DNA of 64,000 bases from Fodinibius roseus. GTDB lineage: Bacteria; Bacteroidota; Rhodothermia; Balneolales; Balneolaceae. The position numbers were made by a program, and so were the translations under genes. The stretch's first letter is position 1, and each line of letters starts with the position of its first letter. Location: the NCBI RefSeq assembly GCF_900129315.1, contig NZ_FQUS01000014.1:1-64000 (forward strand), given 5' to 3'. Shown one piece after another: positions 11,862 through 52,343 of the stretch. Under the pieces are notes generated by a model. The model did no database searches. It had not been told where the DNA came from and saw nothing but the letters and a program-made list of their open reading frames with translations.

Positions 11862-12590
11862 TTATTCAAGCTCCTTAACTTTGATATTGCGAAATTCTAT
11901 CCTGTTTCCATGGTCCTGCAAGCCTATATAGCCTTCCCGGGCGTCGCCGAATTCGGGATGCTCACGGAACTTGCTGTTGCGGATCATCTCGTACCACTCG
12001 TTGGTCCACAGTTCATATTCCACTACTTTCTCCCCGTTTTGCCAGTGCTCGATATTAGACCCGTCCGCTACTATTTTCACGGAATTCCACTGGCCAAAAG
12101 GGTTCGTATTCTGTGGTTGCGCGGGAATCAGGTCATACAGGGATCCCGCCTTGCGATTGCCGTTTTCTCCCCGCTCGGCATCGGGATGATTTTCATTGTC
12201 CAGGATCTGTACCTCCGGGGCCGACCAATAGATAGGCTGGGTCGGCTGCTCCATAGCCCGGTAGAAAATACCCCCGTTCGCACCTTTGGCCGCTTTCCAT
12301 TCCAATTTCAGCTCAAAGTCGCCATATTTTTGCCGGGTAATGATGTCTCCGCCCCCTCCATCCGACAGTACCACTAAATTGCCCTCTTCCAAGGTCCATC
12401 CCTGCTCCGGAAAAGCTTCCTTGTTATAGCCCCGCCACCGGTCGGTTGTCTCCCCGTCAAAGAGCAAAGTCCAGCCCTCGTCTTTTTCTTCCTCTGATAA
12501 TTCATTATGCTGGGCCTGGCTCATGCAACTGCTTGTGATGAGCAGTCCCAGCGATAAACTTAGCACGGATAAAAATTTCATAGCATTCAT
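11862..12590 (-). CDS. DUF1080 / 3-keto-disaccharide hydrolase family protein (copy 1)
   Basis: Exported protein of 242 aa with a lipobox-like signal (LLITSSC, about residue 22); an ATG at 12581 is an alternative start. The rest is one DUF1080 (PF06439, concanavalin-like jelly roll) domain: LFDGETTDRWRGY, GDFELKLEWK, ANGGIFYR, PEVQILDN, AGSLYDLI, WNSVKIV, HWQNGEKVVEYE, and IGLQDHG...FRNIKV at the end. Family members cleave 3-keto-glycosides. Its partners are the GMC dehydrogenase and its small subunit immediately upstream on the same strand, which would make the 3-keto substrate. That pairing is the best evidence for its role. Confidence 0.9.
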   Translation of the reverse strand: MNAMKFLSVLSLSLGLLITSSCMSQAQHNELSEEEKDEGWTLLFDGETTDRWRGYNKEAFPEQGWTLEEGNLVVLSDGGGGDIITRQKYGDFELKLEWKAAKGANGGIFYRAMEQPTQPIYWSAPEVQILDNENHPDAERGENGNRKAGSLYDLIPAQPQNTNPFGQWNSVKIVADGSNIEHWQNGEKVVEYELWTNEWYEMIRNSKFREHPEFGDAREGYIGLQDHGNRIEFRNIKVKELE

Positions 12591-12792
12591 ATAATTATCG
12601 TATTTAGTTAAAAACAGGTTAATAATTTTCTTTCTCTTATTAAAAAAGGATCAACATGTATCCCGTCGCTATCGATTCTATTTTCTCCAGGGTTTCCCGG
12701 TGATTACGCCTGCACTCCTTATATTCCTGTTTTTTAATCAGCGAGCATTTATTTTAATCCCGGCAATCCTTTCCCAGCAACACCGGAAGCAC

Positions 12793-13410
12793 TCAGGCGG
12801 TACTTCTTTTTTTATCAGCGAGACCGATATGTTCAAGGGCTTCGTGAGAACAGCCCTGCCAGTCGTAGGGCTGGTTGCCCATATAGCCGATATCTTCAAT
12901 TCCGATTTTACTAGACCAAAAACCGGAGGCCACCAAATCTCTGAACCGGTTAAAAAAGGTAACGCCCGGCTGCATTTCGGGTCTCGCCACATCCGGGTAG
13001 GCAATCTCATCAAGCATTTCGGTTTTCTCTTGCTCCGTGCAGTCTATAAATTTCTTATTGAACCGTTTCTGGCACTGTACATCCAGCCAGCTCAGTCCTC
13101 CGCGGATCGGCGTCTGGTTTTCGGGACGATCCAGCATCATGAAATCGATAAACTCCGGAACGCCGGCATCTTCGGCATTCCCCGAACGCTCATCGGCCGG
13201 AATAACCATGTTGGCCAATTGCCGTACTGTTTCAAACTCATGGTCGGTAAAAAACTGCGTTTCCCACTTCTCAAGGTCCTCTTCCGTTACGTGCTTCCAG
13301 AACTTGTGCTGTTTAGCCGCTTCTTCGGGAGCCTGCTCGCAGCCGGTCATCGCGAAACTGGCTGCCAGCGTTCCCAGGGACAACGTTTTTATCGCATCTC
13401 TTCTGTCCAT
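12793..13410 (-). CDS. TAT-exported gluconate 2-dehydrogenase subunit 3 family protein (GMC partner)
   Basis: 205 aa. The N-terminus MDRRDAIKTLSLGTLAASF...GC has a twin-arginine motif and a lipobox-like end, so it can carry its folded partner through the TAT system. The body matches the gluconate 2-dehydrogenase subunit 3 family (LANMVIPADERSGNAEDAGVPEFIDFMM, GLSWLD, FFNRFRDLVASGFWSS, GYMGNQPYDWQGC). In known glycoside 3-dehydrogenases (LacA-LacB-LacC type) such a subunit pairs with a GMC flavoprotein. Here the GMC gene lies 105 bp upstream on the same strand; no LacB-type cytochrome gene is next to it. Confidence 0.92.
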   Translation of the reverse strand: MDRRDAIKTLSLGTLAASFAMTGCEQAPEEAAKQHKFWKHVTEEDLEKWETQFFTDHEFETVRQLANMVIPADERSGNAEDAGVPEFIDFMMLDRPENQTPIRGGLSWLDVQCQKRFNKKFIDCTEQEKTEMLDEIAYPDVARPEMQPGVTFFNRFRDLVASGFWSSKIGIEDIGYMGNQPYDWQGCSHEALEHIGLADKKRSTA

Positions 13411-13515
13411 AGTGTTTGTTCGTCTTTGGTCATGAGTCGCAAGTCACAAGTAAAAAGCACCGGAGATTAATCAAGGGCTTCTCACTACTGTAGGACTTAT
13501 GACTCACGGCTATAA

Positions 13516-15228
13516 TTATAGATTTCCTTTATTCATTTGATCAGCTATATACTCCGAGGTTCTCATCGACAAGGCCAAAATAGTCCATGTGATATTTTTA
13601 TGGGCCATAGATACAAAGGGTCCCCCGTCGGCAACAAATAAGTTGGGAACATCGTGTGCCTGACAATATTCGTTAAGTACCGATGTATCGGGATCCTCAC
13701 CCATTCGGGTGGTGCCGCACTCATGGATAATTTCACCGGGATTGGTAATGCCGTATCCCTCTTCTTTGGGAGGAATATCCCACAGCGGGGTTCCGTCCAT
13801 CTCTTCTATAATACGGTGAAAAGTCTCCTGCATATGTTTTACCTGGTTATACTCCTGATCGCTCCACTCATAATTAAATCGCAATACCGGAATTCCCCAT
13901 TCATCTACCACATTCGGATCTATTTCACAATAGTTATCTTCATAGGAAATAGCTTCGCCCCGGCCTGAAAAGCCAACCATGGAGCCATAATAGCGACGGT
14001 AATCTTCTTTTAACTGTTTTCCATAGCCACCACCGCCTTTGGGACGATCATCATAAATATCGGTATAATTCTGGATCCCCCCCATAAACCCGTAGCTCGG
14101 CATACCGCGTCCACCCCACAGTTCTACGTGATAACCCCGGGCAAAGTCTAAATTGCTGTTGTCTTCCCACCAGGGGATGTACAAATGCATTCCGCCGGTA
14201 CCATCTTCATTGTGAGCAGGCGCATTCATGAGGTCCGGGATAAGCCCCATAACCGATGTCCCGGTCGAATCATTGAGATATTTCCCAACCACTCCGCTCG
14301 AATTGGCAAGCCCATTGGGAAAATCAGCAGATTTTGAATTCAAAAGCAACCGGGCGGATTCGCAGGCGCTGGCTGCTAACACTACGACCTTCGCCCGAAC
14401 TTTATACTCTTGCTTGTCCTCCTTATTAACATACGAAACCCCCGTGGCTCTGCCATCGCTATACGTCACCTCGCGAACCATAGCGCCGGTCCTAATTTCC
14501 AGATTCCCGGTATCCAGGGCCGGGGGAAGCAATACGGAGGGCGACGAAAAGTTAGAATGCGTGGAACAACCGCGGTTACACTGCCCGCAATAATGGCAAG
14601 CCGCTCGGTCATTATGAGATTCCGTAATAATCGACAAACGGGATGGAATACATGGAATACCCATATCATCGCAGGCATCCTTAATCAAATATTCATAGCA
14701 ACGCGGTTCCGGGGGATCCATATAAATCCCTCCGGGGGCATTCGGAATACCTTCGTTCGTTCCAAAAAGCCCGATCAGCCGATCAATCCGGTCATAGTAG
14801 GGTTTGACGTCCTCGTAGTTAATGGGCCAGTCATCTCCGTGTCCATCGATACTCTTCCCGTTGAAGTCATCCGGACCAAAACGCAGCGAAATACGTCCCC
14901 AGTGGTTCGTCCGTCCCCCCAACATGCGGCCCCGGAACCAGTCAAAATTACTGTCGTTCTTTTGGGTATAAGGCTCGCCCTCAATATCCCAACCGCCGAA
15001 ACAGGCGTCGAATTCTCCAAAGGGCTGCAGTCGGGTGCTGGCCCCGCGGCGGGGCGACTCATAGGGCCAGGTAAACATGGCAAAATCCTCCGAATCGAAC
15101 CATCCCCCGGCTTCCAGCATAACGACATTTGCCCCCGCCTTGGTAAGCTCATGGGCCGCCATTCCGCCCCCGGCTCCGGAACCTACAATACAAACATCAT
15201 ACTCTTCGGGACTTTCTTTAATCTGCAT
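13516..15228 (-). CDS. GMC-family FAD oxidoreductase, probable glycoside 3-dehydrogenase large subunit
   Basis: 570 aa. Oxidises a sugar or alcohol hydroxyl with FAD; with the adjacent small subunit the likely reaction is glycoside C3-OH to ketone. FAD-binding motif GSGAGGG at 16-22 with LEAGG at 38-42, GGRTNHWGR at 104-112, and the C-terminal GMC motif HECGTTRMG with the catalytic His502 and AHKN at 542-545. A Cys cluster CHYCGQCNRGC (Cys211, 214, 217, 221) could bind an iron-sulfur cluster, as in FAD-dependent glucose dehydrogenases. It has no signal peptide, consistent with piggyback TAT export by its partner. Substrate specificity is inference from context. Confidence 0.9.
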   Translation of the reverse strand: MQIKESPEEYDVCIVGSGAGGGMAAHELTKAGANVVMLEAGGWFDSEDFAMFTWPYESPRRGASTRLQPFGEFDACFGGWDIEGEPYTQKNDSNFDWFRGRMLGGRTNHWGRISLRFGPDDFNGKSIDGHGDDWPINYEDVKPYYDRIDRLIGLFGTNEGIPNAPGGIYMDPPEPRCYEYLIKDACDDMGIPCIPSRLSIITESHNDRAACHYCGQCNRGCSTHSNFSSPSVLLPPALDTGNLEIRTGAMVREVTYSDGRATGVSYVNKEDKQEYKVRAKVVVLAASACESARLLLNSKSADFPNGLANSSGVVGKYLNDSTGTSVMGLIPDLMNAPAHNEDGTGGMHLYIPWWEDNSNLDFARGYHVELWGGRGMPSYGFMGGIQNYTDIYDDRPKGGGGYGKQLKEDYRRYYGSMVGFSGRGEAISYEDNYCEIDPNVVDEWGIPVLRFNYEWSDQEYNQVKHMQETFHRIIEEMDGTPLWDIPPKEEGYGITNPGEIIHECGTTRMGEDPDTSVLNEYCQAHDVPNLFVADGGPFVSMAHKNITWTILALSMRTSEYIADQMNKGNL

Positions 15229-15522: not shown

Positions 15523-17094
15523 TTAATACCCCGGATTTTGTTCAAGTGCAGGATTGGTCTGGATTTCATCATCCGGAAGCGGGTACAACAGATGATGTTC
15601 TTCATATGTTTGTCCCCAGTTATTGGATTGACCGACCACATCAACAAAGGTGATCTCACCCGGATTGCTTTCCGAGGGTACGGGGTATTGCCGGGTTCGC
15701 TGAATATCCGACCAGATCTTAAAGTTCAGTGCCAATTCACGAAGTCGCTCTTTCCAAACTTCCTCAACGAATTCCTGCTCGGAAAGTCCGGTTAAAGAAG
15801 CTTCAATCTCACTTCTGTCCGTTTGCCAGTAAGCACGATTTCTTACATCCGTAAGATAGGAAACAGCTTCACCGGTGACCCCTTCCGAACGGGCGATCGC
15901 TTCCGCCGCAATTAAAAGGACGTCAGCATAGCGATACACTCTGATATCTCGTCCCCCTCTGCCGGTCTCAAAGATAGCATCTTCCTCGAACCACAGGTAG
16001 GGAGCCCACTCTCCAAATTGATATTCTTGTCCGCCGCGTTCGAGGGAATTATAAAACAGCTGTTTATTCTGTATTCGAAGATCTTCATCCGGATTATAGA
16101 ACCGGGTGAATTCTTCTATAGGCCGATAGGCATTTAAGGTACGCCCGTAATTAATTCCTTCCGGTCGTATGACGCCCGGAACCGTTATGCGGGGATACTC
16201 GCTGGGATCGATCTCTGATTCATATTCGATCCCATAAATATACTCCCGGTCGGTATCTGAGGTACGCATTTTATTATAAGCACTCTCCTCTGTGGATTCT
16301 CCGTGTTGTACCAATTCATGGGTGCCGGACTGGATAACGGCTCTTGCAGCTTCGGCCGCATTGGCATAATGAGCAGTCTGCTGAAGAGGATAACCGGCCA
16401 TTTGAAGATTAACCTCGGCCAACAGGGTAGAAGCGGCGGCCTCCGTTATCCGGTAACCGTTCATCGAAAATGCTCCCTCGGTTAATGATCCCTGGTTCAG
16501 TGCCCACTCCAAATCCGCTATAATTTGATCATATACCGTTTCAGAACTGGTCCGTTCCACCTCTATATTCTCTAACCCTTCTACCGGTTCCGTAACCAAT
16601 GGTACATCGCCGAAAAATTTAACCAGGGAGAAATAATTCAGAGCTCTGAAAAAACGGGCTTCCGCCAGCAATTGATTCTTTTCGTCGTCAGATAATCCAG
16701 CCATATCCGGAATATATTTCAGGGCTGTGTTGGCCCTGGATATCACTTCATAGTGACCCGACCACCAGCCGTCAAAAAATTGATTCAACACTTCGGGACC
16801 AACCTGAAGGTCCTGGGCGACCTGTCCCTGTATGCGTTCTCCCTTCCCTTCGTTGTCGAAATAGCCGGACATGTAGCCGCCCATCATGACATCAGCACCT
16901 CCGAAGCCCCCGGAATCGTAAAAGCTCTGACCCTGCCCATCCCGGTACAGCCCATTCACCAGTCCGCGGGCGCCTTCCGGCGTATTCAGCAGCTGGTCCA
17001 CAGAAATTTCATCCTTCGGGGTTTCCGCCAAAAAGTTATCACACGAACTGAACGCCCCAAAAGACAATACGAGAACAAAAATTAACTTCTTCAT
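15523..17094 (-). CDS. SusD/RagB-type outer-membrane nutrient-binding lipoprotein (pair 2)
   Basis: 523 aa with a short lipoprotein signal (FGAFSSC, Cys18), then the SusD N-terminal region (FLAETPKDEISVDQLLNTPEGARGLVNGLY), the conserved EARFFRALNYFSLVKFFGDVPLVT stretch, and the C-terminal YPLPDDEIQTNPALEQNPGY signature. It starts 33 bp after the SusC stop on the same strand. The dehydrogenase and DUF1080 genes follow it, so its ligand is probably a glycoside handled by them. The only break in the run is repeat copy 1 between it and the GMC gene. Confidence 0.95.
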   Translation of the reverse strand: MKKLIFVLVLSFGAFSSCDNFLAETPKDEISVDQLLNTPEGARGLVNGLYRDGQGQSFYDSGGFGGADVMMGGYMSGYFDNEGKGERIQGQVAQDLQVGPEVLNQFFDGWWSGHYEVISRANTALKYIPDMAGLSDDEKNQLLAEARFFRALNYFSLVKFFGDVPLVTEPVEGLENIEVERTSSETVYDQIIADLEWALNQGSLTEGAFSMNGYRITEAAASTLLAEVNLQMAGYPLQQTAHYANAAEAARAVIQSGTHELVQHGESTEESAYNKMRTSDTDREYIYGIEYESEIDPSEYPRITVPGVIRPEGINYGRTLNAYRPIEEFTRFYNPDEDLRIQNKQLFYNSLERGGQEYQFGEWAPYLWFEEDAIFETGRGGRDIRVYRYADVLLIAAEAIARSEGVTGEAVSYLTDVRNRAYWQTDRSEIEASLTGLSEQEFVEEVWKERLRELALNFKIWSDIQRTRQYPVPSESNPGEITFVDVVGQSNNWGQTYEEHHLLYPLPDDEIQTNPALEQNPGY

Positions 17095-17127: not shown

Positions 17128-20100
17128 TTAAAACCTGAAGTTCACTCCAAGGGTAAATGTTCGCGGCTTGGGATACTGGTAAAAGAAAATGTTTTGTGTA
17201 TTCGGATTTCCCTGCCATGACGACCCTTCGGGGTCGTGACCTTTGAAGTCGGGATGATGAATCACAAATGCATTTTCCAGGCTTGCCGTAATCCTCATTT
17301 GCTGCACCCCCATCCGGGAGGTCATATTCTGGTCGAACGTATATCCTACCGAGAAAAGATTCCCCCTGATATAGGAACCGTCGACGATCCAGTGACTGTC
17401 AGCCTGGGTATTTTGTCCGGAAATAGGCTGGTGCCTGATTCGCTGAATGGGCGTGTCCTGATTGTCTACGGTCCATGCATCATGCAGTTGGGTGCTGATC
17501 CCATTCGTAAGCGCCTGCCGGTCTTCGGCGGTATGTAAGAACTGCTGCATGATTTCACTGCCATAGACAAACTGCAGATCAGCCGTAAAATCAAAGTTTC
17601 CGAAATTAAACTGGTTGGAAAAACTTCCGGTCCAGTCGGGCATGCCATGACCGATAATTTGCCGCTCTTCCGACCGTTTGGCCTCTCCCGGTATTCGACC
17701 AGCATCAGCAGCCTCTTCCGCTTCGTCGGTATTCCATGTACCCATCCGCTTGAACCCATAAAAGGTGCCTATCGGCTCTCCTACTCTGAGTATCGTCTGG
17801 CTTCCGGATACCCAGTTGGGACCCGGGAAAATATCTTCATCCTCAGCGCCCAGACTTTCAACCCTGTTGATGTTGTAATTAAAGTTAAGAGTAGTAGACC
17901 AGAAAAAGTCTGAAGTCCGAATATTGTTGGTTGTCATCATAAAATCCACCCCGCGGTTCGATACAGATCCCACATTGTCCATAACCACGTCAAAGCCGGT
18001 GGTAGCCGGGATCGGACGGTCAAGCAACAGATCATCCGTGAGTTTATAATAGTAATCGGCTTCTAACGATACGATCTGGTTGAACAGGTCGAGCTCCACT
18101 CCGACATTGTACTGGGTGGTTTTCTCCCACTCCAGATCCGGGTTGGCTAACCTCTGTAAACTACTGGAGGTTCGACGCGTTCCCCCGATTAAGGCCGTCC
18201 CTGAACTTATGGTCGATAACGACTGGTAAACTCCGATTTCAGTATTGCCGGTTTTACCTAAGGAACCTTTAAACTTTAAATAGTCGATAAATTCTATATC
18301 CGACATAAAATCTTCGTTTGAAGCCGTCCAACCCAGTCCCAACGATGGGAAAAAACCATATTTATTGTTTTCCCCGAACCGGGACGATCCGTCCAATCTA
18401 CTCGTAAAAGTTGCGCTATACGTTTCATCATAGGTATAGCTTCCGCGGACAAAATAGGAATTCATTGTCCAGTCATAGGCATTGGAGGCCGGAATGCTGT
18501 TAATGTCGGTTGCCGCATCAATATTGTTGGTGCGATACAAATCGTTGGGAAACTCCCGCACATCCGAAGAATTGGCTCTGTAGTCCGTTCCCTGCCAGCT
18601 GGCTCCCAAGACCGCGTTAAGACTGTGGCTACCGCTATCAATGATATAGGTAAGATAATTTTCATTCTGCCAGTAGGTGGTTTCACTGTTTTCTATGCTG
18701 GCATTTCCTACCGACGTGGATGGAGATTCCAGGTCAGTCGGCTGGTAGTTACGGGCTTCAAAATTGGTATTATTTATTCCGAATTGCGTACGGAATTCTA
18801 AGTTTCCCGTAATCTGAAATTCAGCAAAGGTATTACCGAACAGTTGAATTCGATCCCGCAATCTGTCTTCTTCCAGAGCGCGATGGACCGGATTAGGTTG
18901 GCCTTCAAGGGTCAGGCTTTGCACATCGTTAAAGTGCGTATATGAACCATCTTCCCATCTTACCGGCAGTATGGGAGCAAACTCAATCATTGTCCGGCGG
19001 ATCTCCTGGCCACCGCCTCCTTCTTCAATATTGTTTTCCCAGGTTTTATTTACGGTTAGGTTTGTTCCTATGGATAACCAGTCAGTGGGATCGGCATCAT
19101 ACACAATTTTAGCGCTGGCGCGTTTCATCCATGAATTGAGAATAATTCCCTCATTATTGGTATAATTTAAAAATCCACCGAAAGATGACTCTTCTCCTCC
19201 CGATTGTACTCCTATCTGGTGATTGTGTGAAAGAGCTGTTCGCGTGACGGCATCCTGCCAGTCGGTATCATAAATAGGGTTACCCTGATCATCAAACAAC
19301 GTTCCTATATCGGGAGAAAGGTCTAAGGTAGGCTCTTCACCCGGTGCATAATCATCAAACAGAGGGGCATTTTCATAGCCGATCCGCTGAACCTCCATAA
19401 ACTCTTCAGCATTCATGGCATCCATGCGGCCCCGCATCCTACCGACACTAAAAGAGCCATCATAACTTACAGTAACACCTTCGCCGGCCGAATCACCCCG
19501 CTTCGTGGTCACTAAAATAACTCCGTTAGCTCCCCTTGAACCGTAAATGGCCGTAGCTGAGGCATCCTTCAGTACTTCAATGCTTTCAATGTCGTTTGGA
19601 TTCATATATTCAATGCCATTTTGCATTGCAACACCATCGACAACATATAACGGGTCCGTATCGGCATTTATAGACCCGGATCCCCTGATCACTACCCTGT
19701 TGCTTCCGGTGGGAGCACCGGAATTGGTAAAAATGTTAACTCCTGCTACTTTACCTCTTAAACTCTGCAGGGCGTTGAATGAAGGTTGTTTTTCCAACTC
19801 CTCTCCGGATACCATTCCGATTGAACCGGTGACATCGGATTTCCTCTGAACGCCATAACCGGTGACAACCAGTTCCTCCCCCGATACGGCTTGAGACTGT
19901 AGCGCCACATCAATTACAGTCCGCCCGTTGATCGGTACTTCACGAGTTTGGTACCCGATAAAGGAAAAAACCAGGGTGTCCTGCAAAGAGGGAACATCAA
20001 GTTCAAACTGTCCCTCTGTATTAGTAGAAGTCCCGGTGGAAGTCCCTTTGATCAAAATATTTACGCCCGGCAACGTTTCTCCTGTCTGGGCATCCGTGAC

Positions 20101-20574
20101 GGTCCCCGAAATAACCTCCACAGCAGCCTCTTTTTTAGAATCCTCCCGTTTTGTCAAAACCAGATGATTGTTCGGCGACAAAGCAAACCGTAATCCCGTC
20201 CCTTCCAAAACTTTCCATAGTGCTTTATTAATGGTCACATTTTGCAAATTTATTGTTATGTGCCTTGACAAGGGAACCTGTTGGTCACTGTATGAAAGCT
20301 GAAAGCCCGCCCTCCGGACAATATTCTCAAGAGCGTTCTTTATTGATACATTCTCAAATTCCAGCGAAATCATTTTATTGAGAGATGTAGGAGTCGCACG
20401 ACTGTAGTTTAAATCGATACCGGATAAAACAGAAGCCTTGGTAAAAAGGCTGCCGTCATTACCGGCTGTCGTATCTTGAGCCTGCAACGAATGCATGGTG
20501 AAAAAAAACACTGCAAAAAAGCAGATTAATTTTATTCCCCTTCTGTAAATTCTGAATCGGTTTCGTCCTATCAT
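17128..20574 (-). CDS. SusC-type TonB-dependent transporter with STN signalling domain (pair 2)
   Basis: 1148 aa. A GGGGG stretch lies about 4 bp before the ATG, supporting this start, and a signal peptide follows (LICFFAVFFFTMHSLQAQ). STN domain about 60-150 (FENVSIKNALENIVRRAG), regulatory domain about 155-235 (GTVTDAQTGETLPGVNI), plug with VVTGYGVQ and the VLKDASATAIYGSRGANGVI box, and a barrel ending in VNFRF. It imports the substrate and should signal to the FecR-sigma pair upstream. Its regulatory domain is almost identical to that of SusC 1 although barrels differ, as expected for different ligands. Confidence 0.95.
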   Translation of the reverse strand: MIGRNRFRIYRRGIKLICFFAVFFFTMHSLQAQDTTAGNDGSLFTKASVLSGIDLNYSRATPTSLNKMISLEFENVSIKNALENIVRRAGFQLSYSDQQVPLSRHITINLQNVTINKALWKVLEGTGLRFALSPNNHLVLTKREDSKKEAAVEVISGTVTDAQTGETLPGVNILIKGTSTGTSTNTEGQFELDVPSLQDTLVFSFIGYQTREVPINGRTVIDVALQSQAVSGEELVVTGYGVQRKSDVTGSIGMVSGEELEKQPSFNALQSLRGKVAGVNIFTNSGAPTGSNRVVIRGSGSINADTDPLYVVDGVAMQNGIEYMNPNDIESIEVLKDASATAIYGSRGANGVILVTTKRGDSAGEGVTVSYDGSFSVGRMRGRMDAMNAEEFMEVQRIGYENAPLFDDYAPGEEPTLDLSPDIGTLFDDQGNPIYDTDWQDAVTRTALSHNHQIGVQSGGEESSFGGFLNYTNNEGIILNSWMKRASAKIVYDADPTDWLSIGTNLTVNKTWENNIEEGGGGQEIRRTMIEFAPILPVRWEDGSYTHFNDVQSLTLEGQPNPVHRALEEDRLRDRIQLFGNTFAEFQITGNLEFRTQFGINNTNFEARNYQPTDLESPSTSVGNASIENSETTYWQNENYLTYIIDSGSHSLNAVLGASWQGTDYRANSSDVREFPNDLYRTNNIDAATDINSIPASNAYDWTMNSYFVRGSYTYDETYSATFTSRLDGSSRFGENNKYGFFPSLGLGWTASNEDFMSDIEFIDYLKFKGSLGKTGNTEIGVYQSLSTISSGTALIGGTRRTSSSLQRLANPDLEWEKTTQYNVGVELDLFNQIVSLEADYYYKLTDDLLLDRPIPATTGFDVVMDNVGSVSNRGVDFMMTTNNIRTSDFFWSTTLNFNYNINRVESLGAEDEDIFPGPNWVSGSQTILRVGEPIGTFYGFKRMGTWNTDEAEEAADAGRIPGEAKRSEERQIIGHGMPDWTGSFSNQFNFGNFDFTADLQFVYGSEIMQQFLHTAEDRQALTNGISTQLHDAWTVDNQDTPIQRIRHQPISGQNTQADSHWIVDGSYIRGNLFSVGYTFDQNMTSRMGVQQMRITASLENAFVIHHPDFKGHDPEGSSWQGNPNTQNIFFYQYPKPRTFTLGVNFRF

Positions 20575-20591: not shown

Positions 20592-21668
20592 TTAGTTTAC
20601 CTGTTTATGATTTTTTAAATAAAAACTGATATTTCGGCCGTCTCTTTGAAATTCTGCATTGAGAGAGAGCGCGAGGATATTTATCACCTCCAGCATGGGT
20701 TCATCACTAAATGAAGCTGTCACCTGCCGGGAATAAAGAGCGGTATCCGTTACAATCTTAACATTATACCACCGCTCCAGTTGAGGTATGACTTTTTCGA
20801 AAGGAGTTGATTCGAAAACCATTCGGCCATCCTTCCATGCAAAATAAGCTGAAACTCCTTTTACCCTTGTTACCTGCGGCTCTCCGTCAGAACCCAGTAA
20901 CCCCACCTGATTGGCAGTCAGGTGAAGATCCTCGGCAGCAGACCTGCCAGAAGAGCTCAGGGCCACTTTTCCCTCTTCAACAACAACCTGCACTCTTTCA
21001 TCCTGAGGATAGGCCTTAACGCCAAATCGTGTTCCTAAAACTCTGGTGGAAGAATGACCGGAATAGACAACGAACGGGACACTCGGATCGCGCGCTACAT
21101 CAAAGTAGGCTTCTCCCTGCAGCTGGACACTGCGTATGCTGTCTCCAAAAGTTGATGGAATTTGAACGCGGCTGTCGGCATTCAAATACACCTGCGTCCC
21201 ATCCGCTAACCGAAACGAGGTACGCTGTCCCAGTTCCGTTGAAATTTCCTGGATCTGGGATTTTTTTTGAGCAAGTTCTTGATCGGTTGCCCCGAAGTTC
21301 GGCAGAAAAAAATACATCAAAACTCCGGCCAGTAATATCATGGCTGCGGCAATGGAAACGGCAACCGGCCGCCTGTACCCTTTTCTTCCGGGTTTGCCAG
21401 ATTGAATGGATTGAAAGCCTGTTAACGTTTTTTGAGATGCGTACTCGCCCTCCCCCTCCTTTTCCTCTGAAATTTTTTCCCTGAAAGAGTTCCAGGCATC
21501 TTTAGCATCCACCTTTATATTGTGATCGGGCTCGATGCTCCAAATTTTTTCAAGAGAATCATAAAACGCCTGATTTCGTTGATCGGAACGAATCCAGTGC
21601 TCCACCTTTTCTTTTTCTGCCTGGGTGCATTCATCCGACAAATACTTGTGCAGTATCGTCCAGTTCAT
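20592..21668 (-). CDS. FecR-type transmembrane anti-sigma/sigma regulator (set 2)
   Basis: 358 aa with the same layout as the regulator at 9.5 kb: N-terminal helical domain (KVEHWIRSDQ ... DAWNSFREKI), basic linker, membrane span about 101-122 (PVAVSIAAAMILLAGVLMYFF), FecR domain (FRLADGTQVYLNADSRVQIP, LQGEAYFDVARDPSVPFVV) and C-terminal DUF4974 domain (GRMVFESTPFEKVIPQLERWY). It ends 17 bp before the SusC start, so the two are cotranscribed. It probably controls the ECF sigma factor at 22.1-22.7 kb. Confidence 0.95.
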   Translation of the reverse strand: MNWTILHKYLSDECTQAEKEKVEHWIRSDQRNQAFYDSLEKIWSIEPDHNIKVDAKDAWNSFREKISEEKEGEGEYASQKTLTGFQSIQSGKPGRKGYRRPVAVSIAAAMILLAGVLMYFFLPNFGATDQELAQKKSQIQEISTELGQRTSFRLADGTQVYLNADSRVQIPSTFGDSIRSVQLQGEAYFDVARDPSVPFVVYSGHSSTRVLGTRFGVKAYPQDERVQVVVEEGKVALSSSGRSAAEDLHLTANQVGLLGSDGEPQVTRVKGVSAYFAWKDGRMVFESTPFEKVIPQLERWYNVKIVTDTALYSRQVTASFSDEPMLEVINILALSLNAEFQRDGRNISFYLKNHKQVN

Positions 21669-22133: not shown

Positions 22134-22676
22134 CTACAGATACTGCGAAAGAGAATTGCGTAACTTTTTAAGAGCCCTGCTCATCTGGGACTCCACGGTT
22201 TTAACAGATATATCCAGGACGTCTGAGATTTCCCGATAGGTGAGCCCGTCTTTCCGGCTTAGCTTATAAACTTGACGGGCACGATCAGGAAGATTTTCAA
22301 TTGCTTTTTTTGCAGCCTTCTCAAACTCCGATTGCTCCCCGTAATGATGTGTCTGGGTTACCGGGGTGGGTGATAACCATTCAATTTTGCTATTATACTC
22401 CTCCGCCAGTTCCTGATGCTTAATATGATTGAGGGCTTTGTTTCGAACGGACTGATATAAATAGGATCTTACGTCTTTTTTTGAATCAAGCGTTTCTCTT
22501 GACTTCCAAACCGCCAGGAACACTTCTTGTACCAACTCCTCAGAAACATGCCGTGAGCGGGTAAACTGCCAGGAAAACTGGCACAGGGGTTCATAAAACC
22601 TGAGAAAAAGCTTTTCAAATGCTTTTCGATCTCCTCCCTTTATTTTTTTGACCCATAACTTTACGCCTTTTTTCAT
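22134..22676 (-). CDS. ECF RNA polymerase sigma factor (set 2)
   Basis: 180-aa cytoplasmic ECF sigma factor. Region 2: GDRKAFEKLFLRFYEPLCQF ... SEELVQEVFLAVW; region 4: LPDRARQVYKLSRKDG LTYREISDVLDISVKTVESQM, ending LKKLRNSLSQYL without the hydrophobic tail of sigma factor 1. GGGGA lies 4 bp before the ATG. It heads the second sigma-FecR-SusC-SusD set and presumably activates it. The gene is followed at once by a long-hairpin repeat, which separates it from FecR. Confidence 0.95.
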   Translation of the reverse strand: MKKGVKLWVKKIKGGDRKAFEKLFLRFYEPLCQFSWQFTRSRHVSEELVQEVFLAVWKSRETLDSKKDVRSYLYQSVRNKALNHIKHQELAEEYNSKIEWLSPTPVTQTHHYGEQSEFEKAAKKAIENLPDRARQVYKLSRKDGLTYREISDVLDISVKTVESQMSRALKKLRNSLSQYL

Positions 22677-25091: not shown

Positions 25092-26039
25092 CTATGCCGA
25101 GAGTTCTTTTCCAACGTCCACTAACAACTCTTTTGTCGCCTTGATCCCCTCAATCTCACTGAGCTCACTTCCCTCATATTCAATTCCGATATGTCCGGTA
25201 TATCCGGCATCCTTCACAATTTTTAGCATCTTCCGATAATCGATATTTGTTTCCTCACCCTCCTCATTAAAGTCGTGACTCTTGGCGCTGACTCCCCTGG
25301 CATACGGCATCATTTCTTCGACCCCGGTATAATAGTCATACTCTTCGACACAGGCTCCGTCCTCGCTTTTTAGGCAAAAATTACCGAAATCGGGTAACGT
25401 ACCACAGTTCTCCATATCAACCTGCTCCATTACATCGGCAAGCCACTTACCATCAGAAGAGTAACCGCCGTGATTTTCAACAATCACATTGATATCATAA
25501 TCTTCGGCAAAGGTAGCCAGGCTTCCCAAACCATCGACGGCTGTCTTCTTCTGTTCCTCTTTCGTTCCGTCTCCACGAGTATTCACGCGAATGGAATGGC
25601 ACCCCAGGTATTCGGCCGCTTCCACCCATTTATAGTGATTTTCCACCGCTTCCCGGCGTTTCCCGTCATCGATAGCTGCCAGGGGGCCTTCCCCATCAAC
25701 CATAATGAGTATCTGATTCACTCCCAGGTCATCACACCTGCTGTTCATCTCATCCAGGTAATCGGTGTCTTCCGCTTTGTCCATAAAGAACTGGTTCACA
25801 TATTCCACGGCAGTGATCCCAAACTCATTCCTGGTGGTGGCCGGAAAATCAAGATGATCCATCTCCCCGTCAAAGATAGCGTTATGCAAGCTCCATTGAG
25901 CCAGAGAGATGTCAAAAAAAAGATCGTCCACCGACTCTGAGGTTTCTCCTGAGCTACATGCTGAAATAAGGCCGGTTACTGATATTGATGCAGCCGCTGC
26001 GCCCAATCCTCCCACCTGTAAAAAATGCTTTCTATCCAT
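25092..26039 (-). CDS. Exported sugar phosphate isomerase/epimerase-like TIM-barrel protein
   Basis: 315 aa, AP-endonuclease-2/xylose-isomerase-like family (PF01261). The N-terminus (MDRKHFLQVGGLGAAAAS ... LISAC) combines a twin-arginine-like motif with a lipobox. Metal ligands can be followed: Glu in VIVENHGG, Asp in LPDFGNF, His in SAKSHDF, Glu in GIEYEG. Exported members of this family occur with GMC dehydrogenases and DUF1080 proteins, and may isomerise or hydrate keto-sugars. It is divergently arranged with the permease at 26.3 kb, sharing a 291-bp regulatory region. Confidence 0.88.
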   Translation of the reverse strand: MDRKHFLQVGGLGAAAASISVTGLISACSSGETSESVDDLFFDISLAQWSLHNAIFDGEMDHLDFPATTRNEFGITAVEYVNQFFMDKAEDTDYLDEMNSRCDDLGVNQILIMVDGEGPLAAIDDGKRREAVENHYKWVEAAEYLGCHSIRVNTRGDGTKEEQKKTAVDGLGSLATFAEDYDINVIVENHGGYSSDGKWLADVMEQVDMENCGTLPDFGNFCLKSEDGACVEEYDYYTGVEEMMPYARGVSAKSHDFNEEGEETNIDYRKMLKIVKDAGYTGHIGIEYEGSELSEIEGIKATKELLVDVGKELSA

Positions 26040-26330: not shown

Positions 26331-27584
26331 ATGAATAGATTATTACAAGCGAAGCTTAGCCTCATGATGTTTCTGGAGTTTTTCGTATGGGGGGCCTGGT
26401 ACTCTACCGTTGCCGTGTATATGACCGCCAATGGAATGGAGAACCTGACACACTGGCCGTTTACCGTGAATCCCATTGCAGCCATAGCGGCGCCTTTCTT
26501 TGTGGGACTTATTGCCGATCGCTATTTTTCCACGGAAAAGGTGCTGGGATTCCTGCACATTCTGGGTGCAGTCTTCATGCTTTTAACGCCTATGGCTGTT
26601 GACAGTCCGGTTATTTTTATCCTGTTGCTGCTGGCCTACAACCTGTGCTACATGCCGACGATGAGCCTGGCAAACACCCTCTCCTTCCATCATATTAACG
26701 ACCAGGAAAAGGATTTTCCCATTATCCGGGTGTTCGGGACAATCGGCTGGATTGTAGCGGGACTGATTATCAGTTTTGTATTGGGACAGTTTTTAGCGGA
26801 AAATGCCATACCTGAGGAAACCGCTTTGCCCCTCTACTTAACCTCGGCTGCAAGCCTGCTATTGGGGCTTTACAGCTTTACTCTTCCTCATACGCCGCCG
26901 CCTGCTGCCGGCGAAGAAACTTCTGTCCGCAGCATTATCGGTATTGACGCACTGAAACAGCTGGGAAGCAAATCGTTTTATGTATTCCTGGCCAGCTCCC
27001 TTTTGATCTGTATCCCGTTAAACGTTTATTACAACTTCGCTCAGATTTTCCTGGGTGATGCCGGGTTCAATAACATCGCTGCTACACTTACGATCGGACA
27101 AATGTCGGAAGCGATCTTTATGGTGCTGATCCCTGCCATGTTTGTCCGTCTCGGCGTCAAATGGATGCTGGCGGCCGGCATGTTTGCCTGGGTTTTGCGC
27201 TATGCCTTCTTTGCCCTGGGAGCCACAGACCCCATCATATGGATGATCCTTACCGGTATTGCGCTGCATGGTATCTGCTATGACTTCTTCTTTGTGACGG
27301 GACAAATTTACGTGGATAAAAAGTCGACCCCTGAGATCCGGGGACAGGCGCAGGGACTGATTGTCCTTATTACCTATGGGGTAGGTATGCTGATCGGTGC
27401 GCAGGTGGCGGGACAAGTATACAATGCCTTCCTGGGGACGGCGTCGTCGCTGAGCCTGGCCCAGTGGCATGACTTCTGGTGGATACCCGCTGCGTTTGCT
27501 GCCGCCGTCCTGATATTCTTCATCATCTTCTTCAATGACCAGGTGCTGGATGAAGACACCACCGCTGAGGATATAACGGTATAA
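26331..27584 (+). CDS. Nucleoside:proton symporter-like MFS permease (NupG family)
   Basis: Inner-membrane transporter of 417 aa with about 12 membrane spans. N-terminal FLEFFVWGAWYSTVAVYM, the LIADRYFSTEKVLGFLHILGA loop after span 2, FPIIRVFGTIGWIVAGL in the middle and RGQAQGLIVLITYGVGMLIGAQVAG towards the end are typical of the Nuc_H_symport family. Start supported by an AAGGA ribosome-binding site. In this context (PUL-like genes, DUF1080, cytochrome protein 28 bp downstream) it more probably brings a degradation product, perhaps a keto-sugar or glycoside, into the cytoplasm than nucleosides. Confidence 0.92.
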   Translation: MNRLLQAKLSLMMFLEFFVWGAWYSTVAVYMTANGMENLTHWPFTVNPIAAIAAPFFVGLIADRYFSTEKVLGFLHILGAVFMLLTPMAVDSPVIFILLLLAYNLCYMPTMSLANTLSFHHINDQEKDFPIIRVFGTIGWIVAGLIISFVLGQFLAENAIPEETALPLYLTSAASLLLGLYSFTLPHTPPPAAGEETSVRSIIGIDALKQLGSKSFYVFLASSLLICIPLNVYYNFAQIFLGDAGFNNIAATLTIGQMSEAIFMVLIPAMFVRLGVKWMLAAGMFAWVLRYAFFALGATDPIIWMILTGIALHGICYDFFFVTGQIYVDKKSTPEIRGQAQGLIVLITYGVGMLIGAQVAGQVYNAFLGTASSLSLAQWHDFWWIPAAFAAAVLIFFIIFFNDQVLDEDTTAEDITV

Positions 27585-27611: not shown

Positions 27612-30600
27612 ATGTCGCTTCCCGGAAATGACTGCTATTTGCCAGCTTACGATGAATACCCTATTCTGCTGAAAATACTCCTGCTTTCCTCCCTGTTATT
27701 CATGGTCACGGGTTGCGGTAACCAGCCGGAGCTGGAAATCACTTCGATCCCGGATGAAGAAGCCGCAGGGGATGCTAAAACGATTCGCAGTGAGGTGTCT
27801 GTTCAACTCGCCGATGATGATCTGGTGCTAAGCCTTTGGGCTTCCGAAAAACTGCTGGCTGATCCCATCGGATTGGATGTCACTAATGACGGGGAGGCTT
27901 TTGTCTCTGTTACAAACCGCAGAAGCAGCTCCAAACCCGATATCCGCTGGCATGAGGACTGGATGACAGAATCAATGAGCTGGACCACCGTGGAGGAACG
28001 GGCGAATTTTTTAACGCAAACATTATCCCCTGAAAACAGCGGTCAGACCAGCAGCTGGCTGGAAGATCTGAACGGGGACGGTTCGCACGACTGGAAAGAT
28101 CTGACGGTCGACGGGGAGGAAATTTACAGGATTTCCGACCGTTCCGGCGACGGCATAGCCGACTATTCCCAACTCTATTTGCGGGACTTCCGGAATAGGG
28201 AATCGGATGTGGCGGGAGCGGTTTTGTCCCACGACGAGGATGTGTTTGTCGGGATTGCGCCCGACATGTGGCGGACCCGGGACACCAACGACGACGGGAT
28301 GGCTGACAGCAAAACCTCTATCAGCTATGGCTACGGGGTCCATCTCGGTTTCAGGGGACACGGTATGTCGGGACTTACGACGGGACCCGACGGACGAATT
28401 TACTGGAGTGTCGGGGATGTCGGGCTGAACGTGGAGGGACCCGACGGGAAGCGCTGGTTTTATCCCAACCAGGGCGCCATCCTGCGATCCGAGCCGGATG
28501 GCAGTAATTTCGAAGTCTTCGCTGCCGGACTCCGTAATCCCCATGAATTCTCTTTTGATCAATATGGAAACATGATATCGGTGGATCACGACGGGGATCA
28601 TGCCGGGGAGCAGGAGCGTGTGGTATATATTGTCAACGGCTCCGACAGCGGGTGGCGGATCAACTGGCAGTTCGGGAAATATACGGATCCAAAAAATAAC
28701 GATTATAAAGTCTGGATGGATGAGAACTACTTTAAACCCCGGTTTGAAGACCAGGCCGCTCATATTCTCCCGCCGGTGGCCAACTACATCAACGGGGCCG
28801 CCGGCATGGCCTATAATCCCGGCACTGCGCTCAGTGACAAATGGAAAGATCACTTTTTTGTCTCCTATTTCGTCGGTGGTGCCTCCGGTTCAGCGATTAA
28901 CGCATTTACCCTTGAGCCCAAAGGGGCTTCCTTTGAACTGGATACCGACCAGCCTTTCATGCGGGGCATCCTGCCCACAGGTCTGGACTTTGGTCCCGAT
29001 GGCGCGCTTTACTTTGCCGACTGGATCGAAAGCTGGAATACGAACGATATGGGACGTATCTGGCGAATTGACTATCCGGATGAAACCGGCTCGGCTATCA
29101 GGAAAGAGACCAAACAACTGTTAGGCGATGACTTTGCCGCCTACGAGGAGGAGCGCTTATTCTCTTTGCTGCGACATGAAGATATGCGAGTGCGAAAAAA
29201 GGCCCAGTTTGAATTCGTTGACCGGTCGTCCAAACAGCACCTGCTGGAGGCGGTTGAACAACAGGATCATCAGCTGGCACGGCTGCACGGCATATGGGGA
29301 GTCGGACAACTGGCCCGGGAAGAGATTGAAGAGGCTGAATCACTGGTGCCCTATTTGAAGGACGGGGATCCCGAGATACGAGCACAGGTTGCTAAAACGC
29401 TTGGAGATGTTCGGTATTCGGGGGACGCCGATGCGCTGCTTCCCCTGCTGAAGGATGAATCGCTGCGCGTTCAATTTTTTGCTGCGCAGGCACTGGGACG
29501 CATCCGGCACAGGCCTGCAGTGCAGCCTATTGTCGACATGCTGGAAGCAAATAACGACCGGGACATTTACCTGCGGCACGGCGGCGCTATTGCACTCGCT
29601 CGCATCGGAGACGTGCAGGCCGTCGCGCAGTTGTCCGACCACCCCTCGGAAGCGGTTAGAATAGCAGCCGTTGTGGCCCTCAAGCGGATGGAAGCCCCCG
29701 AAGTAGCCCGTTTCTTGTCCGACGAAAGCGCATTCGTGGTAACGAACGCCGCCCGGGCTATCAATGATGATGCCCTGATCAAAGAGGCCCTCCCGGAGTT
29801 GGCCCGCATGCTTGACCAGCGAACGTTTACCAATACCCCGCTCCTGCGGCGGGCTATCAACGCCTGCCTGTACCACGGCACGGGGACCGATGCCCGGCGC
29901 CTGGCCTCCTTTGCGACGCGGGAAGGCGTCAGCGATTCGCTGCGTACGGAAGCCATTGCCACGCTCTCGGTATGGCCGGATCCGTCCCCCCTTGACCGGG
30001 TAACCGGCCGGTACCGCGGGAAAATTCAAAACCCGAAGGCCGATGCGGTTCAGGCCCTGAGCACTATCATCGATCCCATATTATCCGGCGGCAATGATGA
30101 TGTTAAAATTGCATTGATCAAGGCTGTCAGTACCCTGAAGCTGAATGAGGCAAGCTCTGATCTCTTTGCTTTGATGCAGGATCGGTCTTCTCCCGAGGTT
30201 ACCATTGCTGCACTGAATACTCTTCGGGACCTGGACTATGAAAAGATGGACAAAGCTGTCGAAATGGCCTTGTCGTCCGAGAGCCAGCGGCTGCGTATGA
30301 CAGCCCTCAGGTTGACCCCCTCCCTGGATGTTCCAGGCTCTCAAAAAGTGACGCTGCTGGCTTCCGTACTCAATGAAGGATCGATTGTTGAACAGCAAAG
30401 CGCCATAAAGGCACTGGGCACCATCGATTCGGAAGAAGCAACGGAACTGCTCATCGGTCAGTTTGAAAAATTAACGGATGGAAGCCTGCCCGAGGAAGTT
30501 CACCTGGATGTCATCAGTGCAGCAGACAGCTCTAATTCCGAAAAACTCAATACCATGCTGAAACAGTATGAAGAGGCCAAGCCCGAAGACGACAAGGCAA

Positions 30601-31067
30601 CCCAATACCGGGAAAGCCTTTATGGCGGGGATGCACGGCAGGGCGAACAGATCTTCTATAATGATAACACGGCGCAGTGTATTCGCTGTCACGCGGTCGG
30701 CGGAGATGGCGGGAACGTAGGTCCCGACCTGTCAGCGATAGGTGATGTTCTCACACGCGAACAGCTGCTTGAATCCATGGTAGCACCCAACAAGCGGATT
30801 GCTCCCGGCTTTGGTTCTGTGACCATCACGACCGAAGCGGGACAACAAATACAGGGCGTGCTCGAGGAAGAAACCGACAGCTATGTTACCGTCGAGGTAA
30901 CGGAGGGGGAAACAAGAAAAATTCAAAGAGAAGAAATTGCCGAACAAATCAATTCCCCTTCCGGCATGTACTCTATGGAAGGCATCTTATCCAAGCACGA
31001 GTTGAGGGATCTGGTTGAATTTCTCAGCAGGCGAACGAATGGGACCGCTGACTACAACCGTCAATGA
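27612..31067 (+). CDS. Giant propeller-HEAT-cytochrome c lipoprotein (PVC-type dehydrogenase)
   Basis: 1151 aa, exported lipoprotein (lipobox FMVTGC near residue 36). Three parts: an N-terminal beta-propeller of the membrane-bound dehydrogenase type (about 60-490, with VGDVGLNVEGPDG, GLRNPHEFSFD, DHDGDHAGEQERVVY, LDFGPDGALYFADW), a long HEAT-repeat region (about 500-1000), and a C-terminal TIGR02603-type cytochrome c. The haem site CIRCH starts at Cys1023, followed by GGNVGPDLSAIG and MYSMEGIL with a likely axial Met. Such proteins oxidise a sugar or alcohol and pass electrons to haem; the substrate is not known. It lies between the permease and DUF1080 copy 2, with short gaps of 27 and 32 bp. 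Confidence 0.92.
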   Translation: MSLPGNDCYLPAYDEYPILLKILLLSSLLFMVTGCGNQPELEITSIPDEEAAGDAKTIRSEVSVQLADDDLVLSLWASEKLLADPIGLDVTNDGEAFVSVTNRRSSSKPDIRWHEDWMTESMSWTTVEERANFLTQTLSPENSGQTSSWLEDLNGDGSHDWKDLTVDGEEIYRISDRSGDGIADYSQLYLRDFRNRESDVAGAVLSHDEDVFVGIAPDMWRTRDTNDDGMADSKTSISYGYGVHLGFRGHGMSGLTTGPDGRIYWSVGDVGLNVEGPDGKRWFYPNQGAILRSEPDGSNFEVFAAGLRNPHEFSFDQYGNMISVDHDGDHAGEQERVVYIVNGSDSGWRINWQFGKYTDPKNNDYKVWMDENYFKPRFEDQAAHILPPVANYINGAAGMAYNPGTALSDKWKDHFFVSYFVGGASGSAINAFTLEPKGASFELDTDQPFMRGILPTGLDFGPDGALYFADWIESWNTNDMGRIWRIDYPDETGSAIRKETKQLLGDDFAAYEEERLFSLLRHEDMRVRKKAQFEFVDRSSKQHLLEAVEQQDHQLARLHGIWGVGQLAREEIEEAESLVPYLKDGDPEIRAQVAKTLGDVRYSGDADALLPLLKDESLRVQFFAAQALGRIRHRPAVQPIVDMLEANNDRDIYLRHGGAIALARIGDVQAVAQLSDHPSEAVRIAAVVALKRMEAPEVARFLSDESAFVVTNAARAINDDALIKEALPELARMLDQRTFTNTPLLRRAINACLYHGTGTDARRLASFATREGVSDSLRTEAIATLSVWPDPSPLDRVTGRYRGKIQNPKADAVQALSTIIDPILSGGNDDVKIALIKAVSTLKLNEASSDLFALMQDRSSPEVTIAALNTLRDLDYEKMDKAVEMALSSESQRLRMTALRLTPSLDVPGSQKVTLLASVLNEGSIVEQQSAIKALGTIDSEEATELLIGQFEKLTDGSLPEEVHLDVISAADSSNSEKLNTMLKQYEEAKPEDDKATQYRESLYGGDARQGEQIFYNDNTAQCIRCHAVGGDGGNVGPDLSAIGDVLTREQLLESMVAPNKRIAPGFGSVTITTEAGQQIQGVLEEETDSYVTVEVTEGETRKIQREEIAEQINSPSGMYSMEGILSKHELRDLVEFLSRRTNGTADYNRQ

Positions 31068-31099: not shown

Positions 31100-31924
31100 G
31101 TGAATCCTATTGCCAATGCTACCTGTAAAAAAGTCCTTTTTATTCCCCTCATCGCCGTTTTGGTCCTTGTTTCAATGGGTTTTATGTTTTCATGCAGCTC
31201 GGATACGCCTGCCCCGCAGGAAAAATGGATTTCCCTGTTCAACGGGGAAAACCTCGATGGCTGGACTCCAAAATTTACCGGCCATGAGCTGGGCGTTAAC
31301 TTTAAAAATACGTTCCGGGTGGAAGACGGGCTGCTTAAGGTCTCTTACGAAAACTATGAAACCTTTGATGGCAAATTCGGGCATCTTTTTTATAAGCAGC
31401 CCTATTCTAAATATAAGATACGACTCGAATACCGGTTTGTCGGCGAACAAATACCCGGAGCCCCCGACTGGGCGTATCGGAACAGTGGTATCAAATTTCA
31501 TTGCCAACCCCCCGAATCGATGGCACTGGATCAACAGTCCCCGGTATCTATTGAGGTCCAGCTGTTGGGAGGAGACGGCGAGAACGAGCGTCCCACAGCC
31601 AACATTTGCTCGATGGGTACGCATATCGAAATGGACGGCGAACTCATCACCCAGCATTGTACGCAGTCAGGTTCCGATACCTATCACGGCAGTCAATGGG
31701 TAGAGGTGGAAGCAGAAGTGAATGGCGGGGATATTGTCAAACATTTTGTGAATGGTGAAGAAGTTCTTGCCTATTCAAGGCCTCAATATGACACAAGCGA
31801 CACCAATACAAAAACCCTTGTTACAGACCCGGATAACCTGCTGATCGAGGATGGATATATCGCCCTCCAGGCGGAAAGCCACCCCGTGCATTTCCGTAAC
31901 ATCGAGCTGCTGCCTCTTGAGTAA
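31100..31924 (+). CDS. DUF1080 / 3-keto-disaccharide hydrolase family lipoprotein (copy 2)
   Basis: 274 aa, starting with GTG at 31100; the downstream ATG codons would remove most of the signal peptide. Lipobox FMFSC, then a DUF1080 domain in its longer form: LFNGENLDGWTPKFTGHELG, FRVEDGLLKV, GHLFYKQPYSKYKIRLEY, NSGIKFHCQ, VSIEVQLLGGDGE, the THIEMDG/HCTQSG segment, KHFVNGEEVL and IALQAESHPVHFRNIELL. The family includes 3-keto-glycoside hydrolases. It ends the plus-strand operon and its stop overlaps the start of hairpin repeat copy 3. Confidence 0.9.
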   Translation: MNPIANATCKKVLFIPLIAVLVLVSMGFMFSCSSDTPAPQEKWISLFNGENLDGWTPKFTGHELGVNFKNTFRVEDGLLKVSYENYETFDGKFGHLFYKQPYSKYKIRLEYRFVGEQIPGAPDWAYRNSGIKFHCQPPESMALDQQSPVSIEVQLLGGDGENERPTANICSMGTHIEMDGELITQHCTQSGSDTYHGSQWVEVEAEVNGGDIVKHFVNGEEVLAYSRPQYDTSDTNTKTLVTDPDNLLIEDGYIALQAESHPVHFRNIELLPLE

Positions 31925-52138: not shown

Positions 52139-52204
52139 AACTCTGTTATTCTCTATATATAAAAAAGTAAACCTATTGTAATAATTTAACTCCTGATGTT
52201 TAAT

Positions 52205-52343
52205 GAAGTCGCTGCAAAACCGTGTTTTTGGCCAATAACTGCATTTTCGCGCATTCAACATCCTCACTCCTGCCTTATAAGCTACGGGTTTGGAATTCGT
52301 TCCGGGTTGATACTGATTAAATTCCTGGTTTTTCAAAGGCTTC
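52205..52343 (+). repeat. Long-hairpin intergenic repeat, copy 7
   Basis: 139 bp: GAAGTCGCTGCAAAACC at the left, GGTTTTTCAAAGGCTTC at the right. Inner arms GCGCATTCAACATCCTCA and GGGTTTGGAATTCGTTCCGGG. It begins 15 bp after the stop of the RnfD-like gene and ends 67 bp before the next start codon. Confidence 0.82.

Follow-up and report, generated by a model that had tools for sequence, protein, structure and literature searches.

The first 64,000 nucleotides of contig NZ_FQUS01000014.1 of Fodinibius roseus (the window; contig C52 of a 5.08-Mb assembly, genome G000) contain a locus that, judged from its sequence, probably encodes a periplasmic, respiration-linked 3-keto-glycoside pathway. Three minus-strand genes form its centre: a GMC flavoprotein (13516..15228; PF05199 E 1.4e-21, PF00732 E 3e-17), the proposed large subunit of a glycoside dehydrogenase; a protein of the gluconate 2-dehydrogenase subunit 3 family (hereafter subunit 3; 12793..13410; PF13618 E 1.1e-31), its proposed partner in export and anchoring; and a lipoprotein-like DUF1080 / 3keto-disac_hyd protein (11862..12590; PF06439 E 1.3e-52), the proposed 3-keto-glycoside lyase/hydratase. 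Pfam matches and coordinates agree with the original prediction, which had placed a GMC protein with four clustered cysteines, a subunit 3 of twin-arginine translocation (Tat) type and a DUF1080 protein behind the second SusC/SusD pair of the window. Gene identities, residue conservation and a conserved gene association are directly established; the pathway reading is supported by family matches, solved relatives, the association across Balneolota, two plasmid-borne clusters and a scheme in the literature.

The PF06439 domain of the 11862 protein scored 179 bits against a cut-off of 26.8, and 14 solved sequences were matched, the best being 3nmb (E 5e-60); 3nmb, 8v31, 3osd, 8rr2, 8tda and 9fbe span E 5e-60 to 8.4e-58. 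The closest relatives are proteins of Bacteroides type that bear the names 3-keto-disaccharide hydrolase or glycosyl hydrolase, and alignments to the solved relatives showed that 11862 retains all motifs of these Bacteroides enzymes, with HPDA, NRKAGSLYDLIPA and QDHG in place. According to the available text on a 3-keto-O-glycoside lyase of B. thetaiotaomicron, the substitution H275N abolishes hydration activity (PMC13273386). Going by the chain numbering, we infer that 3osd/8rr2 are structures of this lyase and that its His275 corresponds to the QDHG histidine of 11862. No NCBIfam family matched subunit 3 or the DUF1080 proteins, and for the GMC protein the hits stayed far under the cut-off.

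The GMC flavoprotein carries cysteines at positions 211, 214, 217 and 221. Among 76 distinct aligned sequences (L090 to L095 included), the first, third and fourth of these are kept in all 76 and the second in 57; positions 502 and 545, which from their placement we take to be the GMC catalytic pair, are His and Asn throughout (76/76). The closest solved sequences are a Burkholderia-type flavin adenine dinucleotide (FAD) glucose dehydrogenase (6a2u, E 1e-42) and a fructose dehydrogenase (7w2j, E 2e-32), both membrane-bound FAD sugar dehydrogenases, and the best named relatives are those of Fodinibius salsisoli (92%) and F. sediminis (89%). The cysteine region aligns with the Cys-rich stretch of 6a2u, which presumably carries a 3Fe-4S cluster; the predicted "Cys4 cluster" is correct as a count, and the motif may hold a cluster of either the 3Fe-4S or the 4Fe-4S type. 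The GMC fold and cysteine cluster are common to this protein and the 6a2u and 7w2j complexes, whereas the window's protein has the extra Cys214, no adjoining cytochrome subunit gene and a context of glycoside use. Because the GMC protein begins almost at its FAD motif, without a signal sequence of its own, and subunit 3 opens with a twin-arginine motif followed by a lipobox-like end (MDRRDAIKTL...AMTGC), the two are likely exported as a pair, with the GMC protein riding on subunit 3. For subunit 3, no solved sequence was matched up to E 1. The genome holds three subunit-3 genes and four matches to the GMC C-terminal domain in total.

With glucose and fructose dehydrogenases as its closest solved relatives, the GMC protein and subunit 3 might instead form an ordinary periplasmic sugar dehydrogenase that oxidises C1, C2 or polyols for energy, beside a DUF1080 protein that is a true hydrolase or a binding protein for the intact glycan; the relatives 6a2u and 7w2j presumably act on glucose at C1, or on fructose. 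We regard this as quite unlikely, as 11862 has the complete motif set of the Bacteroides enzymes. The grouping of DUF1080, epimerase-like and Gfo/Idh genes also persists in two phyla and is better fitted by the scheme in the accessible text of PMC9007349.

This grouping was traced through 14 Balneolota loci, the window included, whose GMC proteins are at least 68% identical to the window's. A DUF1080 gene lies less than 3 kb from the GMC gene in every one, in either of two gene orders, downstream of subunit 3 or upstream of the GMC gene. GMC, subunit 3 and DUF1080, which had been predicted to act as one set, are thus found together in 14/14 loci, and the set recurs in Pseudoalteromonas. The genus, covered by 12 genomes, has 19 subunit-3 loci, of which 13 fall less than 3 kb from a PF06439 domain, against about 0.28 expected at random placement, although 10 of these 13 represent one orthologous locus and are not independent.

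Two further genes of the window recur in the comparison: an exported AP_endonuc_2 TIM barrel (25092..26039, minus strand; PF01261 E 2.9e-25), proposed as a 3-keto-sugar isomerase/hydratase or second beta-eliminase, and a nucleoside-H+-symporter-like permease (26331..27584, plus strand; PF03825 E 1.2e-101), proposed to import the released sugar. A 25092-type epimerase-like gene occurs less than 3 kb away in 11/14 loci and in several abuts the GMC gene directly; the three exceptions are the window, F. salsisoli and F. sediminis, where a cassette encoding an extracytoplasmic function (ECF) sigma factor, FecR, SusC and SusD stands between the two. The 26331-type permease is present at seven of the 14 loci, again counting the window. 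These comparisons support the assignment of both genes to the same conserved locus as the GMC genes, in keeping with the part they had been given in the predicted route. The window does not by itself fill out that route, as had been suggested: it supplies the epimerase-like gene and the permease, and the likely reductase lies outside it. A cytosolic Gfo/Idh gene is found within 9 kb in 10/14 loci, with both halves in one locus in G006, G021 and G004. The only Gfo/Idh match of the window's genome at E <= 1e-40 is on contig C15, beside a second GMC/subunit-3 pair, and in F. sediminis (G001) and F. salsisoli (G008) the gene is on the contig of the GMC gene, about 80 kb and about 29 kb off, respectively. 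The best NCBIfam match of the Gfo/Idh protein, levoglucosan 3-dehydrogenase, reached 115.9 bits, far under the cut-off of 650.

The TIM-barrel fold of 25092 is supported by a predicted model and by fold comparison. In sequence, the protein matches 4ovx (E 2e-103) and the C-glycoside deglycosidase DgpC1 (9m3b, E 3.9e-10). The model superposes on 4ovx with 60% identity, Z 41.7 and a root-mean-square deviation of 1.1 over 270 aligned positions. The next best matches are the isomerase Art22 at Z 28.7, the C-glycoside deglycosidases at Z 26.6 to 24.7 and, at about 25, the D-tagatose-type epimerases. Residues E188-N-H190, D217 and E287-Y-E289 (the EYE(G) motif) align with DgpC1, and Glu188, His190, Asp217, Glu287 and Glu289 are invariant in 12/12 relatives. 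These residues, and the place of C-glycoside deglycosidases, at Z 26.6 to 25.1, among the best fold matches after 4ovx and Art22, would suit an enzyme that itself splits the glycosidic bond as a CGE/OGE-like beta-eliminase, leaving DUF1080 to hydrate the glycal or serve as an accessory. However, the seventh-strand His of DgpC1, the fourth CGE ligand, is Ser251 in 25092, so that the His ligand of CGE/OGE enzymes is missing, and the nearby H255 is Tyr in 12/14. Moreover, D-tagatose-type epimerases lie no further than about 1 to 2 Z from the CGEs, so the fold cannot separate eliminase from epimerase, and in Pseudoalteromonas the isomerases next to the same GMC and DUF1080 genes belong to other families, with no 25092 match at E <= 1e-3. 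We consider an eliminase role of this kind very improbable; on sequence and model, 25092 resembles the C-glycoside deglycosidases, and we do not class it as one of them.

The import system adjacent to the enzyme genes comprises an ECF sigma factor (22134..22676; PF04542, PF08281; TIGR02985 above cut-off), a FecR anti-sigma factor (20592..21668; PF04773, PF16344), a SusC-like TonB-dependent receptor with an STN signalling domain at residues 91-142 (17128..20574; PF07715, PF13715, PF07660) and a SusD-like lipoprotein (15523..17094; PF07980 E 3e-23), all on the minus strand. STN-bearing SusC, FecR and ECF sigma factor are consecutive, as in trans-envelope signalling SusCD systems, and the predicted signalling SusCD is therefore present; in one direction, the ECF sigma and FecR genes precede SusC, SusD, GMC, subunit 3 and DUF1080. 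Its predicted tie to the pathway holds in part: the system adjoins the enzymes here, but it does so in only 3/14 loci and is lineage-specific. That scarcity would also fit an unrelated import cassette for another substrate, inserted between the epimerase-like and GMC genes. The 295-base gap before the GMC gene would fit it too: a separate promoter could lie there, and the gap has no clear conservation, at 40 to 55% identity among the three species. Against this, the cassette keeps its position and orientation in all three, always just upstream of the GMC genes, and a simple scan listed no terminator-like site in the gap; we find an unrelated cassette rather unlikely. Since neither scan was richer than shuffled sequence (promoters, 22 sites against 23.9; terminators, 11 against 18.0), we claim no operon boundary. 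Two amidohydrolase-2 family genes at 23073-24957 separate the ECF sigma gene from the epimerase-like gene; they had no counterpart among the matches listed near the GMC gene in other Balneolota loci, and we can only guess that they are lactonase-like.

Beyond Balneolota, a plasmid of Pseudoalteromonas donghaensis carries consecutive genes for Gfo/Idh, an isomerase, a major facilitator superfamily (MFS) transporter, DUF1080, GMC, subunit 3 and a second isomerase. Identities to proteins of the F. roseus genome are 47.7% for GMC, 37.7% for DUF1080 and 47.1% for Gfo/Idh; the isomerases and transporter gave no match to those of the window at E <= 1e-3. A Sphingomonas plasmid encodes Gfo/Idh, cytochrome c (a 138-aa open reading frame, ORF), an isomerase, MFS, a TIM barrel, DUF1080, subunit 3, an isomerase and GMC. 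Its GMC, TIM-barrel and Gfo/Idh proteins are 47.8%, 41.9% and 42.7% identical to products of contig C15. There, locus L018 holds the second GMC/subunit-3 pair together with the Gfo/Idh gene and a gene for a Tat-exported TIM-barrel protein, and is related to the Sphingomonas Lac-type cluster.

In the LacABC system of Caulobacter crescentus, we take LacC to be a subunit-3-type protein and LacB a cytochrome c. In the scheme proposed in the available text of Price et al. 2022, LacABC acts in the periplasm, oxidising C3 of lactose, and a DUF1080 protein then cleaves the product; the text describes a transporter, two epimerases and a reductase near LacABC and similar clusters in Bacteroidetes, and uses a GMC threshold of at least 40% identity to LacA (PMC9007349). 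The original prediction had reasoned from the same scheme, a LacA/LacC-type dehydrogenase followed by DUF1080 cleavage. The central idea of a GMC dehydrogenase paired with DUF1080 is thus already published, and the present locus is a variation on a known scheme. It shares with LacABC the GMC protein, the subunit-3-type partner and the DUF1080 protein; of the further genes near LacABC, the window has counterparts in one epimerase-like gene and one permease. In contrast to LacABC, it lacks the small cytochrome, has SusC/SusD and ECF/FecR genes alongside and a reductase on another contig (C15), and its GMC protein falls in another subclade (30% identity with the Sphingomonas Lac-type GMC taken for comparison). 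The additions to known work are a Balneolota branch, a tie to a reductase encoded outside the window and a lineage-specific SusCD insertion, with a four-gene core that survives rearrangement. The Bacteroides BT2156-BT2160 3-keto-glycoside pathway (BT2157 being DUF1080, with NCBIfam families BT_2158 and BT_2159) has a closely related DUF1080 enzyme, but oxidation there is by a Gfo/Idh enzyme rather than by a flavin/iron-sulphur dehydrogenase. The sequence of oxidation, elimination, hydration and reduction is also laid out in the accessible parts of Bitter et al. 2023 and Kuritani et al. 2020. As far as the available texts describe them, the levoglucosan LgdA-B1-B2-C pathway (PMC7676230) and the Agrobacterium OGE pathway (PMC10628242) follow the same step order with TIM-barrel and Gfo/Idh proteins, but use Gfo/Idh dehydrogenases and have no DUF1080 in the described steps. 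A literature search found no paper naming both GMC and DUF1080, and a search combining Balneolota names with these families returned no mention of DUF1080 among the matches listed.

Together, these proteins probably form the following pathway. A glycoside would enter through SusC/SusD, with a signal from STN through FecR to the ECF sigma factor raising expression, as the architecture suggests. The GMC protein, exported through the Tat system by lipoprotein-like subunit 3, would oxidise a hydroxyl group of the sugar, C3 being the likeliest position, and its electrons would pass from the iron-sulphur cluster to a cytochrome and on to the respiratory chain. By analogy with its relatives, the 11862 DUF1080 protein would split the 3-keto-glycoside, beta-elimination and then hydration being the probable steps. 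The 25092 TIM-barrel protein may process the keto-sugar or act as a second eliminase, the 26331 permease would import the keto-sugar, and the cytosolic Gfo/Idh oxidoreductase encoded on contig C15 would reduce it to a normal hexose.

Several observations weigh against such a 3-keto-glycoside pathway. The locus has no small LacB-like cytochrome c gene, and four of the 14 Balneolota loci, including the window, have no Gfo/Idh gene within 9 kb. The Sphingomonas Lac-type GMC is 30.3% identical to the window's and 47.8% to that of C15, to which it is nearer, so the window's protein is by sequence a separate branch that keeps the same gene company. In a tree of 57 GMC proteins (L090 to L095 and the fragment L096 left out, same-genome duplicates collapsed), a DUF1080 gene lies less than 3 kb away in 23 and within 9 kb in seven; the other 27 have none in the flanking sequence covered, where short contigs set the limits, and these would equally suit the ordinary dehydrogenase considered above. 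Within the same limits, Chitinophaga lacks DUF1080 in 7/7 GMC rows, but has a gene for a Tat-type Gfo/Idh just downstream; the C15 GMC of the F. roseus genome, like its C38 GMC, has no DUF1080; and L090 to L095, 31 to 33% identical, match neither DUF1080 nor subunit 3. According to the available text of PMC9007349, at least one member of PF06439 has been described as an endo-xanthanase/lichenase, so the family alone is no proof of keto-glycoside chemistry, a point that likewise favours a true hydrolase. Deletion of BT2157 or BT2158 in B. thetaiotaomicron gave no growth defect on raffinose-family sugars, as reported in the accessible part of PMC11501099.

The sole CxxCH-containing ORF of at least 70 aa in the window encodes a 1151-aa PVC-type beta-propeller protein with DUF7133, HEAT and haem c (CIRCH) regions (27612..31067, plus strand; PF23500 E 7.5e-28; TIGR02603 103.8 bits, cut-off 68.15), which is a possible electron acceptor or a separate dehydrogenase. 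It is followed by a second DUF1080 gene of uncertain role (31100..31924, plus strand; PF06439 E 6.4e-37), with no solved relative at E <= 0.001, and a third, likewise uncertain, carries a PA14 domain (50210..52336, minus strand; PF06439 E 2e-21, PF07691). Both had been predicted to contribute to the route, and both exist as PF06439 proteins. In place of QDH, 31100 has QAE and 50210 has QGD, the histidine being absent from both, and both genes adjoin PVC-type beta-propeller genes (27612-31067, with haem c, and 47938-49998, with a cupredoxin domain); because of these replacements and neighbours, the two proteins need not act on the same product as 11862. The PVC-type proteins and their DUF1080 neighbours may be a separate system; 11 of 58 DUF7133 loci in the genus lie less than 3 kb from a DUF1080 domain, against about 1.1 expected.

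The F. roseus genome contains 31 PF06439 matches. Across the 12 genus genomes, the counts are 0 (two genomes), 1 or 2 (six), 14 (two), 23 and 31. In an alignment of 31 rows from this genome, one of them a partial duplicate, 29 extend to the QxH position, with His in 16 and another residue in 13. On contig C28 (L021, 7907-12013), a 1368-aa ORF (1380 in the open frame) holds three tandem DUF1080 domains, with a further DUF1080 gene directly behind.

The claim that the window holds no classical glycoside hydrolase stands as far as Pfam goes: a scan of 37 window proteins (E <= 0.001) found no glycoside-hydrolase family other than PF06439, although 195-2777 and 21715-22125 had no Pfam match and might encode one. 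Next to a sulfatase and SusCD, the former encodes an 860-aa Tat-type exported protein that matched neither a Pfam nor an NCBIfam family and no solved sequence up to E 1; it has relatives in 2/58 genomes (its own counted), and its predicted model has a mean predicted local distance difference test score of 31. It could be an unrecognised enzyme, for which reason the claim is a statement about Pfam matches.

Between the DUF1080 gene at 31100 and an FG-GAP/ASPIC gene, the segment 32066-38658 encodes sulfotransferase, Wzx-type, GT56-like, DegT, GNAT and nucleotidyltransferase proteins. In G001 and G008, an ASPIC-like gene directly follows DUF1080, without such a block, and blastn found no match to the block in L098, L100 or L105. 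Large FG-GAP/ASPIC-UnbV proteins and a TPR/FG-GAP protein are encoded around the third SusCD pair, at 38944-42282 and 53212-58620.

A wider reading would make oxidation followed by elimination a main means of glycan cutting in this lineage, gated by SusCD, tethered to the membrane and passing C3 electrons into respiration, with several oxidase types (GMC with an iron-sulphur cluster, Tat-exported Gfo/Idh, and PVC-type beta-propellers with haem or cupredoxin) feeding the DUF1080 radiation. We hold this to be decidedly improbable; it would, if true, give PVC-type proteins a new role as glycoside oxidases. The narrower reading, a 3-keto-glycoside pathway at this locus, would, if correct, extend the route to Balneolota, with a respiration-linked oxidase beside a self-sensing import system, in a compact and testable gene set, and would flag many DUF1080 genes in these genomes that surveys of glycoside-hydrolase families may overlook.

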